Source: Alphaproteobacteria bacterium (lineage in GTDB: Bacteria; Pseudomonadota; Alphaproteobacteria; Rs-D84). Taken from it: a stretch of DNA of 64,000 bases. Every line of letters begins with the position of its first letter. The stretch's first letter is position 1. The notes beneath the pieces are model-generated. The model ran no database searches. It saw nothing but the letters and a program-made list of their open reading frames with translations, and had not been told where the DNA came from. Position numbers and translations under genes: made by a program. Below are positions 18,649 through 63,950 of this stretch, in pieces. The stretch spans positions 1 through 64,000 of the forward strand of contig SUUL01000004.1 in the NCBI GenBank assembly GCA_015062545.1, read 5' to 3'.

Positions 18649-19164
18649 ATGAAAAATCAAAAAACAGTAAAAATTGTACACAGTCCAAAACAACGTTTTT
18701 GGGGAATTATGGCTTTGGTGGCTTTGTTCGGTTGTGGTGTGATGGTTGGGGTCGGAATGAATTCTGACAAGGTGGAATCTGTAAATAATGTTGAGACGCA
18801 AGAAGTTGCCCAACCACAAAAAACATGTGTGCAAATTGAAGAATTGTTAGCAGAACGTTTGCCGGAACCAGATGGTCAGGGTGAATTGCGCATTATACGT
18901 GCAAAAATATTTGCACAGATGTCTGAACGTGGGTGTCCGGAAAATTCTGAAAAATATGTTGCGTTGGCAAAACAGGAATTAGAGATTGCACGTGCGTTGG
19001 AAGATGATGAATTCGACCAATATGAAACAATAGAAGTCGTTGAAACGTACAAGCGTCTTGATATGCAGGCGGCTGCAGAAGAAATTTTGGAAACAGCAAA
19101 AAAATTAACAAATCCCGCGATAGATTTTATTTTGGAAGTTGAAAAAATAATCAATGAACAATAG
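18649..19164 (+). CDS. Membrane-anchored hypothetical protein
   Basis: N-terminal TM; overlaps the next ORF. Confidence 0.7.
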   Translation: MKNQKTVKIVHSPKQRFWGIMALVALFGCGVMVGVGMNSDKVESVNNVETQEVAQPQKTCVQIEELLAERLPEPDGQGELRIIRAKIFAQMSERGCPENSEKYVALAKQELEIARALEDDEFDQYETIEVVETYKRLDMQAAAEEILETAKKLTNPAIDFILEVEKIINEQ

Positions 19165-19738
19165 GTTTGAAACAATGAAAAAAATTATGTTCTTATTTGG
19201 TTTGTGTGTCTGCATGCCTGCTGTGGCCGAAGAAGGGGCGGCAGAAAATACAAAAACTGAAACAGTGGTTGTAGAGCGTATGTCCTGTTCAGATATGCAG
19301 GCACGTATCAAGGAATTAAGTGATGTAGAAGATGAAACCGGTGATGTTGCAGCAGAAATTGCCAGTTTAACCCAGGATTATCGCCGCAGTTGTATGCGAT
19401 CTGCAGCAGGGAGGCGGGCATCTACCACCACACGTGCGCCTGTGATTGTGGCAGAACCAGAACAGGTGGAAGAGGTTGAACCAGAACAGGCAACAGAAGA
19501 GGTCCCTGTTGAAACAGAAACTGTTGTGGAAGAGGTGTCTGTCGCAGAAGAAGTTGTGTCAGAAATTACACCAGAGCAAGAATTGGCAAATTTGGATGCG
19601 GGTTTATGTGCAGACGGCAGCAAGCCAAATCAATTTGGTTGTTGTGGGGATGAAATATTCAAGGATTTGGGTGATGCAATATTTGCGTGTTGCCCAAGGG
19701 GTGACGACACAACTGAATGTTTTCCGCCAATAAATTAA
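19154..19738 (+). CDS. Secreted hypothetical protein, E/V-rich, Cys-containing C-terminus
   Basis: Signal peptide (MKKIMFLFGLCVCMPAVAEE) and acidic low-complexity linker. Start may be the internal Met of MKKIMFLFGL. Confidence 0.7.
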   Translation: MNNRFETMKKIMFLFGLCVCMPAVAEEGAAENTKTETVVVERMSCSDMQARIKELSDVEDETGDVAAEIASLTQDYRRSCMRSAAGRRASTTTRAPVIVAEPEQVEEVEPEQATEEVPVETETVVEEVSVAEEVVSEITPEQELANLDAGLCADGSKPNQFGCCGDEIFKDLGDAIFACCPRGDDTTECFPPIN

Positions 19739-19835
19739 ATCTAATGACTTATCTAAAAGGAAAAACGATGGCTCATGTAACTTTTGTACACTACGCCATC
19801 GTTTTCCCTTTTATCTAAATCATTATCTTTAATTT
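19732..19835 (+). repeat. Copy A of the 104-nt palindromic hairpin element (41-22-41)
   Basis: Starts AAATTAAA, loop TCATGTAACTTTTGTACACTAC at offset 41, ends ATCATTATCTTTAATTT. Nearly identical to 63685-63788. Confidence 0.9.
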
Positions 19836-19890
19836 CTACCACCGCAAGGGGGGTGGCGTTTTTATCATTTTTATGATATAATTAACTGCT

Positions 19891-52480: not shown

Positions 52481-54763
52481 ATGGCAAAGAAATCAACTTT
52501 TTTACCGGGCAGTATATCAGATGCTTTGCGGTCAATGTCCAGCCGATTGGTGGGGGTGTTGATTTTTCTGATTGGTGGATGGGCGACATGTGCGTTGTTG
52601 TTTTATAATCCGTATTTAGATGGATTTGGTGTGGCCAGTACGTTGGGTGGTCAGTCTGTGATGGGATGGATTGTTGGATGTATCCGTTATGGTGTTGGTG
52701 CGGTGCCGGCATTGTTTCTGTTTTTGTGTGTGATGCGATTCGGTTTTGTGAAGTTGGTTGGATTGCATGGTGATTATGCGCCAGAATATGATTTCTTGCG
52801 TGGGTTTATTGCATTGTGTTTGGGGGCGGTTGGATTGGGCTTGATGTCGCCAAATGCATCTTATGGCGGGCTGTTTGGTGCGATTGCGGCGGCGGATTTG
52901 ATGGCGCTGATGGGTAATGTTGCAATTATTGTTGGAATTTTTTCTTTTGTTGGTTTTTTGTGGATGGCGGGCAGCTTGTTGCATGTGCGTTTGTCGCATT
53001 TGCGGTGGGCAATGCGCTTGATGTACAAGTGGTTGCGCGTTATTGCCGCGGCGTTCAGATTGACAGATATGACCCCTGCCCAAGTGTTGGCAGAATCTGA
53101 TGATGAAGAAGATATAGAAGAAGACGAAGAGATTGGGGAAGATGAAGAAGAGGCTTCAGAAGAAAAGCCAAAGCGCAGTTTGCTGGGACGTAAAAACCAA
53201 AAGAAAGTGGCGGGTGCTGTGGCCGCGGTTGCCACGCCAAAGCGTGCGCGCGCGGGAACGCAATTCAAATTGCCAGATCCGAAAATGTTGGAAAAGTCAA
53301 ATTTCAGTAAATATTCTGTAACACCAGAATTAAAGCAAAATGCCCGCAGTATGGAAGTGAAATTTGCGCAATATGGTGTGCGTGGCAAGGTGGTTGGAAT
53401 CAAGCCTGGGCCAATCGTTACTTTGTATGAATTTATGCCAGATGATGGTACGCGTATGGCGGATGTTAATAAAACTGTAACAGATATGACGCGCGCGATG
53501 GCAACAGAAAGTATTCGTATCGCACATATTCCACGTACACAATTAATTGGTGTAGAAATGGTGAACTTAACCCGTCAAACTGTGCGTTATCGTGGTCTGA
53601 TGGAAAATCCGCTGTTTGTGGAATCTAAATATAAAATACCATTGGCGTTGGGGGTTGATATTGGTGGCAATCCAATGTTCTTTGATTTGGCGAAAATGCC
53701 GCACATGCTGGTTGCAGGGCGTACAGGGTCTGGTAAGTCTGTGTTTGTACAATCAATTATTACGTCTATTGTGTATCACTTTACACCAGACAAGTGTAAA
53801 CTGATTATTATTGACCCAAAGGGTGTTGACTTTGGTTTTTGGGATGATATTCCACATTTAATCACACCGATTGTTAAGTTAGAACCAGAGCCGGCTGTAA
53901 ATGCTTTGAAATGGGCGGTGCGTGAAATGGAAGAACGTTATAAACAATTACAGGTTCTGAATGCGCGCAATATTGAAAGTTATAATGAAATTGCAGCGCA
54001 GAAACGCGAGGCTGGTGAAAAAATTACTAAACAAGTCGCAGTTGGTACAGACGAAGAAACCGGGGAATTATTATTTGAAACCCAAGAAGTAGATTTGTCA
54101 GATATGCCATATATGGTCATTATTATTGACGAGGTTGCGGATTTGATGAGTTTGGCGCGTAAAGACGTAGAAGCCTGTGTGCAACGTATTGCACAAAAGG
54201 CACGTGCGGCGGGTATTCACTTGGTTATGGCGACCCAGCGTCCAGACGCAACAACAATTACAGGTGTTATCAAGGCAAATTTCCCAACGCGTATTTCTTT
54301 CCAGGCGCGCAGCCGTATTGATAGTGTGACATGTCTGGGTGAAGGCGGGGCAGAGCAGTTATTGGCAATGGGTGACATGTTATTCAGCGAGGCCGGCCGC
54401 GTTCCTGTGCGTATCCATGGTGCGTTTATCGATGACAATGAATTGAAACGTATTGGTGATTTCTTGCGCAGTCAAGGCGCGCCAGAATATGCCGAAGGCG
54501 TTACGGATTCTGCCGATGGTGGCATGGGGGGTGGCGATATTGCCGGCATCCCAGGGGCGATTGGTGGTGCGTCTGGGGATAAAGATGCGGATTTATATGC
54601 GCGCGCCAAAGAATGTGTTTTGCGTGATAAAAAACCGACAATTTCTTATATTCAGCGCCGTTTACAAATTGGCTATAACAAGGCTGCAGGCTTTATGGAA
54701 CGCATGGAAGAAGATGGTATTGTGTCTGCGCCTGATGCAAATAACAAACGTCACATCCTGTAA
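52481..54763 (+). CDS. ftsK: DNA translocase FtsK
   Basis: N-terminal TMs, acidic linker, MLVAGRTGSGKSVFVQSI, MVIIIDEVADLM, HLVMATQRPDATTITGVIKANFPTRISF, C-terminal winged-helix. Confidence 0.97.
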   Translation: MAKKSTFLPGSISDALRSMSSRLVGVLIFLIGGWATCALLFYNPYLDGFGVASTLGGQSVMGWIVGCIRYGVGAVPALFLFLCVMRFGFVKLVGLHGDYAPEYDFLRGFIALCLGAVGLGLMSPNASYGGLFGAIAAADLMALMGNVAIIVGIFSFVGFLWMAGSLLHVRLSHLRWAMRLMYKWLRVIAAAFRLTDMTPAQVLAESDDEEDIEEDEEIGEDEEEASEEKPKRSLLGRKNQKKVAGAVAAVATPKRARAGTQFKLPDPKMLEKSNFSKYSVTPELKQNARSMEVKFAQYGVRGKVVGIKPGPIVTLYEFMPDDGTRMADVNKTVTDMTRAMATESIRIAHIPRTQLIGVEMVNLTRQTVRYRGLMENPLFVESKYKIPLALGVDIGGNPMFFDLAKMPHMLVAGRTGSGKSVFVQSIITSIVYHFTPDKCKLIIIDPKGVDFGFWDDIPHLITPIVKLEPEPAVNALKWAVREMEERYKQLQVLNARNIESYNEIAAQKREAGEKITKQVAVGTDEETGELLFETQEVDLSDMPYMVIIIDEVADLMSLARKDVEACVQRIAQKARAAGIHLVMATQRPDATTITGVIKANFPTRISFQARSRIDSVTCLGEGGAEQLLAMGDMLFSEAGRVPVRIHGAFIDDNELKRIGDFLRSQGAPEYAEGVTDSADGGMGGGDIAGIPGAIGGASGDKDADLYARAKECVLRDKKPTISYIQRRLQIGYNKAAGFMERMEEDGIVSAPDANNKRHIL

Positions 54764-54865
54764 ATTAAATATAATAATTCATCTACAAGCGGTGCCGGCA
54801 ATTCATGTAGCGTCTGTACACTACATTGCCGGCACTACTTGTATCTAAATCATTATCTTTAATTT
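54762..54865 (+). repeat. Copy C of the 104-nt palindromic hairpin element (41-22-41)
   Basis: AAATTAAA start, stem GTGCCGGCAAT/ATTGCCGGCAC, loop TCATGTAGCGTCTGTACACTAC at offset 41, tail ATCTAAATCATTATCTTTAATTT. Confidence 0.88.
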
Positions 54866-54945
54866 ACTGCATTTCTGGGTGTGGGTATAATTTTTACTTT
54901 TATATAAATCTTTTTTATGTTAGAATAAGTTACATTAGAGAGAGT

Positions 54946-62961: not shown

Positions 62962-63678
62962 ATGAGTGGACACAGTAAATGGCATAATATTCAACATAAA
63001 AAGGGCGCGGCAGACGCTGCACGCAGTGGCTTGTTTACCAAGTTGGCACGTGAAATTACAATGGCGGCAAAGTTGGGCGATAAAAATCCTGATAATAACC
63101 CACGCCTTCGCTTGGCGATTTTGACAGCCCGCAAAAATTCTATGCCAAATGATAACATCAAGCGCGCGATTGACAAGGCATCTGGCGCGAACACAGAAAG
63201 CTATGAAGCGGTACGTTACGAAGGGTATGGACCGGGGGCTGTACCTGTTATCGTAGAAGCCTTGACCGATAACCCACGCCGTACAGTGCCAGAAATCCGT
63301 AATATCTTTGCCAAAAATGGTGGTAATATGGGCGAAGAAGGTTCTGTTGTATTTATGTTTACACGCGCGGGTCAAATCATGTACCCGGCATCAATCGGTA
63401 AAACCGAAGATGAAATGATGGAAATTATTATGGAAGCAAATGCGGATAATTTGGAAACATCAGAAGAGGGCTTTATCATCACAACAAAACCCGAAGATTT
63501 TATCAACGCACAAAAATACTTGGCGGATATTTTGGGTGAACCAGAACAGGCAGAATTAACCTGGTTACCAAACATGCCAATGGATTTGGATGATGAAGCG
63601 TATGCCAAAATTGAAAAATTGGTAGATGCGCTGGATGCAAATGATGATGTGCAGAAGGTGTTTACAGCGGCTGCCTAA
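62962..63678 (+). CDS. yebC: YebC/PmpR family transcriptional regulator
   Basis: MSGHSKWHNIQHKKGAADAARSGLFTKLAREI...ARKNSMPNDNIKRAIDKA...YEGYGPGAVPVIVEALTDN. Confidence 0.97.
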   Translation: MSGHSKWHNIQHKKGAADAARSGLFTKLAREITMAAKLGDKNPDNNPRLRLAILTARKNSMPNDNIKRAIDKASGANTESYEAVRYEGYGPGAVPVIVEALTDNPRRTVPEIRNIFAKNGGNMGEEGSVVFMFTRAGQIMYPASIGKTEDEMMEIIMEANADNLETSEEGFIITTKPEDFINAQKYLADILGEPEQAELTWLPNMPMDLDDEAYAKIEKLVDALDANDDVQKVFTAAA

Positions 63679-63684
63679 AAAAAT

Positions 63685-63788
63685 AAATTAAATCTAATGA
63701 CTTATCTAAAAGGAAAAACGATGGCTCATGTAACTTTTGTACACTACGCCATCGTTTTTCCTTTTATCTAAATCATTATCTTTAATTT
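63685..63788 (+). repeat. Copy B of the 104-nt palindromic hairpin element
   Basis: Nearly identical to copy A; stem AAAAGGAAAAACGATGGC/GCCATCGTTTTTCCTTTT, loop 63726-63747. Confidence 0.92.
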
Positions 63789-63796
63789 CTTTCGCT

Positions 63797-63881
63797 AATC
63801 TTGGGGTTGGGTGGAATCTCATGTATCGCATGTACACTACGATTCCCGATTTGTTTTTATCTAAATCATTATCTTTAATTT
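63797..63881 (+). repeat. Copy D (left arm divergent) of the hairpin element
   Basis: Stem GGAATC/GATTCC around loop TCATGTATCGCATGTACACTAC (63819-63840). Right arm of exactly 41 nt ends ATCTAAATCATTATCTTTAATTT. Confidence 0.75.
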
Positions 63882-63893
63882 CTTACCATCGCA

Positions 63894-63950
63894 AGGAGTT
63901 GTTGGGCGATGGCTTATGTAACTTGGTGTACACTACGCCATCGTTTTTGG
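63894..63950 (+). repeat. Copy E (degenerate) of the hairpin element
   Basis: Stem CGATGGC/GCCATCG around loop TTATGTAACTTGGTGTACACTAC (63914-63936); conserved tail lost. Confidence 0.6.

Follow-up and report, generated by a model that had tools for sequence, protein, structure and literature searches.

A dispersed quasi-palindromic DNA element at stop codons keeps to the G-rich strand in genomes related to 'Candidatus Enterousia'

Three palindromic repeats follow one another downstream of yebC, close to the end of a 64,000-nucleotide stretch of alphaproteobacterial DNA (the window, by which we mean the whole stretch analysed), and they raise the question of whether such repeats are terminators, a functional RNA or mobile DNA. 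The records containing the element lead us to place the 0.94-Mb genome of the window in the 'Candidatus Enterousia' group. This group forms part of the order Rs-D84, Alphaproteobacteria of animal guts (PMC12306168). The initial annotation, made from the letters of the window, described five copies with a common apical module, and the motif TGTACACTAC was indeed found five times in the window (19785, 54815, 63738, 63831 and 63927), always on the + strand, where 0.05 occurrences were expected. The loops after yebC start at 63726, 63819 and 63914, as annotated. The description of three tandem 41-22-41 palindromes held for the first of these copies, which is full, but not for the second and third, which are right halves (apex plus right arm) with a G-rich tail standing where the left arm would be. 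The copies and their host genes are as follows.

19154..19738, + strand: host gene with no named family (no Pfam match); the element is present at its orthologues too.
19731..19836, + strand: full element overlapping the final codons and stop of gene 19154-19738; 107.2 bits.
52481..54763, + strand: host gene ftsK (Pfam PF01580/PF09397); several other species also have the element at the end of this gene.
54761..54866, + strand: full element overlapping the ftsK stop codon; 120.7 bits.
62962..63678, + strand: host gene yebC/TACO1 (Pfam PF01709/PF20772); element also present at the gene end in several other species.
63684..63789, + strand: full element, 6 nt 3' of the yebC stop codon; apex at 63726-63747; 109.8 bits with covariance model R1.
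63790..63818, + strand: G-rich tail from copy 1 to copy 2, TTTCGCTAATCTTGGGGTTGGGTGGAATC, read from the sequence.
63802..63872, + strand: second tandem copy; consists of an apex (63819-63840) and a right arm and lacks its own left arm; 35.4 bits, model positions 24-96.
63907..63943, + strand: third tandem copy; apex at 63914-63936, short stem and degenerate right arm; 24.6 bits, model positions 36-71.

The element is a quasi-palindrome of approximately 105 nt (approximately 106 nt for the full copies in the window) with a 41-22-41 layout. The + strand of the three full window copies gave fold z values of -9 to -12, with a DNA fold z of -12.2 for the copy after yebC. The apex is nearly fixed and reads YATGTA-N5/6-TGTACACTAC with some variants. 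Among 42 aligned copies, 25 of the 31 predicted pairs had both partners changed without loss of pairing, and 96.3% of cells were paired compared with 73.7% in shuffles, the observed value being reached in none of 500 shuffles. The stems thus covary around fixed unpaired motifs, as had been proposed. Fixed as well is a T.C/C.T mismatch pair (42/42 and 41/42 copies); about one helical turn further out lies another T.C mismatch. The earlier view that the element is not a plain terminator was also right. The complementary (bottom) strand folds better in 41 of the 42 copies; on it the fixed T.C mismatches read G.A and many A.C mismatches read G.T. A general selection for bottom-strand pairing was considered and rejected: the excess of A.C over G.T is limited to the outer arms and is not seen in the inner stem, and such selection is therefore not general. 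Downstream of 100 of 292 copies lies a tail with a GCAAGGGG-like motif, against a background of 1%.

A covariance-model search bore out the expectation of further copies. The genome of the window holds about 25 copies at 16 loci, its 'Candidatus Enterousia' relatives hold up to a few dozen per genome, and matches were found in 125 of 183 family genomes, covering 10 of 13 genera, with none in the other 58 genomes. Elsewhere in the order Rs-D84, one of 18 genomes gave a match, and a weak one. The apex and the mismatches are common to several genera. These genomes are mostly metagenome-assembled genomes (MAGs) with genes called by a simple open reading frame (ORF) script, and some loci taken from two collections are identical DNA. 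Matches outside the family, one each in Chromobacterium (L084) and a pond MAG (L069), showed no positive skew and were judged to be chance. No copy was found in the viral collection; its lone match lies inside a phage coding region and has no covariance-model match, and we therefore take it as chance. The Rfam covariance models returned tRNAs only in the window, with no family for the element, and at locus L111 a lone sub-threshold match judged to be chance. A literature search turned up no work on repeats in Enterousia.

Next, the position of the copies relative to genes was examined. Copies begin at, or 0 to 10 nt from, a stop codon on their own strand: 161 first copies lay directly 3' of a same-strand stop and 112 were tandem followers, while about 15 others were mostly ORF-calling artefacts. 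At L111:4853-4960, and at the same locus in L121, the element sits between opposite-strand genes with no same-strand stop before it, still on the leading strand; no tRNA or RNA genes were found as targets at the few exceptional loci. The left arm often includes the stop codon, pairing reaching the stop in 117 of 150 copies and extending into coding sequence in 80. In the TrxB genes of L229, L106, L232 and L246, the final codons (..LNKL*) lie inside the left arm, and the element therefore supplies the C terminus and the stop codon. Element-free orthologues carry an ordinary terminator at the equivalent place, and the element, itself a putative terminator, probably takes over termination from the hairpin that it replaces. 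Host genes recur across species and include those for EF-P, YebC, FtsK, DnaN, RpoA, S11, S18, TrxB and outer-membrane proteins, the names resting on Pfam for YebC and FtsK, on a DnaA model match beside one copy and otherwise on a reading of the proteins. The EF-P, TrxB and RpoA sites are filled across many species, as vertical inheritance or function would predict, a point against reading the element as mobile.

Such a placement could reflect a functional RNA of the 3' untranslated region (3'UTR), either a terminator or a hairpin that protects the mRNA and binds a protein through its apex, selected at certain genes and homogenised by gene conversion. The sense orientation directly 3' of stop codons, the replacement of ordinary terminators, the occupancy of EF-P, YebC, DnaN, RpoA and TrxB in many species and the conserved apex with its strong covariation all favor it. 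Nevertheless, we consider this explanation unlikely: tandem copies continue past the first hairpin and often cannot form a stem, the strand opposite to the transcript is the one that folds better, the 58 family genomes mentioned above have no match, and the presence of the element tracks the replication strand rather than the gene.

The last point was evident from third-position GC skew, which was positive on the element strand (the G-rich strand) at 137 of 141 loci; the other four were the two chance matches outside the family and two loci of near-zero skew. All 16 loci of the window's own genome lie on the G-rich strand, which carries only about 60% of other coding sequence. With orientation judged by opposite-strand genes alone, 77 of 84 were on that strand, and none of 110 pattern-fetched loci had mixed orientation. 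In most bacteria the G-rich strand is established to be the leading strand, and from the GC skew and a ParA-like gene near the skew change we infer the same here. Orthologues on the leading strand had the element in 158 cases and lacked it in 57, whereas on the lagging strand 33 lacked it and the single one scored as positive reflected the element of a neighboring gene (Fisher, approximately 3e-6 even with only 10 lagging cases). In genomes where the gene has been flipped to the lagging strand, namely, EF-P in the element-rich G024 and G038 and YebC in G039 and G021, the element was missing and an ordinary terminator was present; in G024, the opposite-strand neighbor of EF-P carries the element instead. 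A purely RNA role in the 3'UTR, one of the candidate roles first suggested, leaves this strand dependence and the absence after a gene flip unexplained.

The element also clusters in one chromosome arm. Of 144 element-bearing genes from all species, 134 map to 200-600 kb, - strand, of the single-contig genome G003, chiefly to 350-590 kb; transcription-unit ends are evenly spread on the same genome. In G016, no element was found in the 333 kb of the largest contig (C1); elements lie in 240 kb of strong one-sign skew and are missing from 130 kb of no skew, and in G034 they are likewise confined to the strong-skew region. The skew of the arms was compared in G003 (L290-L337), G016 (L187-L205, L338-L354) and G034 (L259-L288): third-position GC skew has an absolute value of 0.2 to 0.45 in one arm and 0 to 0.1 in the other, the change being abrupt near 600 kb of G003. 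No other long hairpin families were found in the remaining arm. In the genome of the window, the gene for DnaA lies in the element-bearing arm and carries an element. Elsewhere, dnaA was located at about 280 kb of G016:C2, 443 kb of G003:C1 and 238 kb of G034:C6; in G016 the gene has left the arm that bears elements, now lies in the skew-free zone and carries none. A dif-like sequence, CGCATAATGTATATTATGTATA, occurs at G003:C1 near 209.8 kb, and another, CGTATAATGTATATTATGTATA, in L281, off the GC-skew sign change. Kinship with dif was rejected, as the dif-like site in G003 and G034 does not resemble the element. The confinement to one arm is not accounted for by reading the element as a mobile palindrome and counts against that reading.

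Within genomes, the element spreads as a discrete unit with sharp ends. Among 33 within-genome pairs of copies at unrelated genes, identity was 91 to 100%, fell to about 0.25 (chance) at 42 to 44 nt to the left of the apex and dropped after about 44 nt on the right. The window holds one such pair, the copies at 63684..63789 and 19731..19836, which are 98.7% identical over the arms. Near-identical stems made up 13% of comparisons between genes within a genome, 8% for the same gene between genomes and 4% in the background, so the within-genome sharing exceeds the same-gene sharing only moderately. Filled and empty orthologues were compared as well and were too diverged for a target-site duplication or a clean empty site to be read. 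In at least five full copies, the left half is of one type and the right half of another, with the junction in the apex, and right halves pile up in tandem as units of 82 to 116 nt.

Hybrids joined at the apex and tandem right-half units are what sites resembling the attC hairpins of integrons could produce, if an integrase acting on the folded bottom-strand apex swapped right halves and built arrays. We regard such a recombination system as improbable, and to the same degree its corollary that the orientation serves to keep the active strand on the leading-strand template. The bottom strand is the more stable one, and the GC skew places it on the leading-strand template, an arrangement also seen in chromosomal integrons (PMC11023631). 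However, there are no gene cassettes between the sites, which follow core genes (EF-P, YebC, FtsK, DnaN and RpoA) over about 250 kb; the element is conserved at its apex, whereas attC is conserved at its base; and no dedicated integron integrase was found in the element-rich genomes G027, G029, G034 and G044, each search giving just two tyrosine-recombinase matches, presumably XerC and XerD.

No other enzyme family searched for tracks the element either. Serine recombinases gave no match in G034 and G054. Reverse transcriptase (RVT_1) was absent from the window's own genome, G016, G035, G038, G054 and others, so a group II intron or other retroelement lacks its reverse transcriptase in these genomes. 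The Y1 transposase (PF01797) occurs in 5 of 183 family genomes, none of which is an element-rich member of the genus, and is absent from the window's own genome. Most element-rich genomes thus have neither Y1/RAYT transposase nor reverse transcriptase. No transposase or recombinase co-occurring with the element, for which the initial annotation advised looking, was found among the Y1, reverse transcriptase, tyrosine and serine recombinase families, and the suggested Y1/REP substrate finds no support. A REP/BIME or another MITE moved by a resident transposase is accordingly an explanation to which we give scarcely any credence. The copies do resemble these repeats as extragenic, multicopy, clustered palindromes, and their bottom-strand apex contains a GTAG reminiscent of the REP tetranucleotide (PMC6006769). 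Yet this GTAG lies inside the hairpin, not as GTAG/GTGG at the 5' foot of a short one, and a strict orientation to replication is not expected of a DDE-transposon MITE.

We find it somewhat probable that the element is a lineage-specific, nonautonomous, dispersing palindromic DNA element that moves at the replication fork and whose arms are kept paired by template switching. It would be copied or moved by a putative enzyme as folded single-stranded DNA at the fork and would land in the hairpin of a resident terminator. Template switching on the leading strand would then keep the arms complementary: the nascent leading strand may fold back on the left arm and copy it, sometimes into the gene end. 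The opposite orientation may be unstable or harmful, either with the better-folding strand on the lagging-strand template or through fold-back copying into the gene; if the gene lies upstream on the leading strand, copying would run downstream and be harmless, whereas on the other strand the gene would be overwritten. Right arms that are reverse complements of a gene end were observed for YebC in G016 and G035, an AMP-ligase in G010 and TrxB in G136. At L171:2075-2174 (EF-P, G035) and L075:5713-5818 (yebC, termite-gut MAG), the apex alone is inverted and the arms are unflipped relative to the gene. Arm homogenisation and spacer inversion are named as the signature of template switching in PMC8604942; the process is stronger on the leading strand in Escherichia coli (PMC6357072) and can keep RNA hairpins paired (PMC8794818). 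The pairing of the arms is thus probably renewed by template switching.

Replication errors alone, in the form of template switching that enlarges and homogenises terminator hairpins with no mobile element involved, would share this leading-strand bias (PMC6357072), the copying of gene ends into arms and the apex inversions at L171 and L075. We nevertheless hold such an origin to be very unlikely, as near-identical 105-nt units with sharp ends stand at unrelated genes and several genera share the apex and the mismatches. The fixed mismatches, which template switching alone does not explain, weigh against the preferred reading of a mobile palindrome at the fork. Of the three roles first proposed, the mobile palindrome acting as folded single-stranded DNA is the best, the Y1/REP substrate is unsupported, and the purely RNA role in the 3'UTR does not explain the strand dependence; the position at stop codons, the strand lock, the single-arm distribution and the dispersal with sharp ends were not foreseen in the initial annotation. 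We propose only tentatively, as a doubtful possibility, that the element represents a novel class of mobile DNA, in which a palindrome without coding sequence would multiply at the replication fork, restricted to one strand and one arm, insert at terminator hairpins next to stop codons and be independent of the known enzyme families for single-stranded DNA transposition or recombination.

Dispersed palindromes are common in bacteria, for the most part with indirect links to replication. For the present element, almost no copy departs from a single orientation relative to the fork, and genes that have flipped naturally provide a ready test, making it a tractable case for the survival, spread and continued pairing of hairpins as DNA is replicated. 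It also cautions that strong covariation need not imply a functional RNA, and it may lead to a new enzyme that handles single-stranded DNA.

Among known systems, REP/BIME repeats (REPINs) with TnpA-REP (RAYT) are also short extragenic palindromes, clustered and numerous in a genome, and their proposed mechanism is tied to single-stranded DNA at the fork (PMC6006769). The present element differs in being longer, in the conservation of its apex instead of the foot, in having no Y1 transposase, and in starting at a stop codon with a single orientation relative to replication. Rickettsia palindromic elements (RPEs) and ERIC/RUP/NEMIS-like repeats are dispersed palindromes of 100 to 150 nt, and RPEs, like the element, occur in reduced alphaproteobacterial genomes. 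We know of no replication-strand lock or stop-codon position in these repeats. Integron attC sites share the conservation of structure over sequence, the strand asymmetry of folding and the tandem arrays, and in chromosomal integrons the attC strand that folds better is likewise kept on the leading-strand template (PMC11023631); the element is instead dispersed over about 250 kb, has neither cassettes nor a dedicated integrase that we could find, and conserves its apex rather than base triplets. Finally, the quasipalindromes produced by template switching, as described in PMC6357072, PMC8794818 and PMC8604942, show the same arm homogenisation, spacer inversion and leading-strand bias. Those are local events, whereas the element also disperses as a defined unit.
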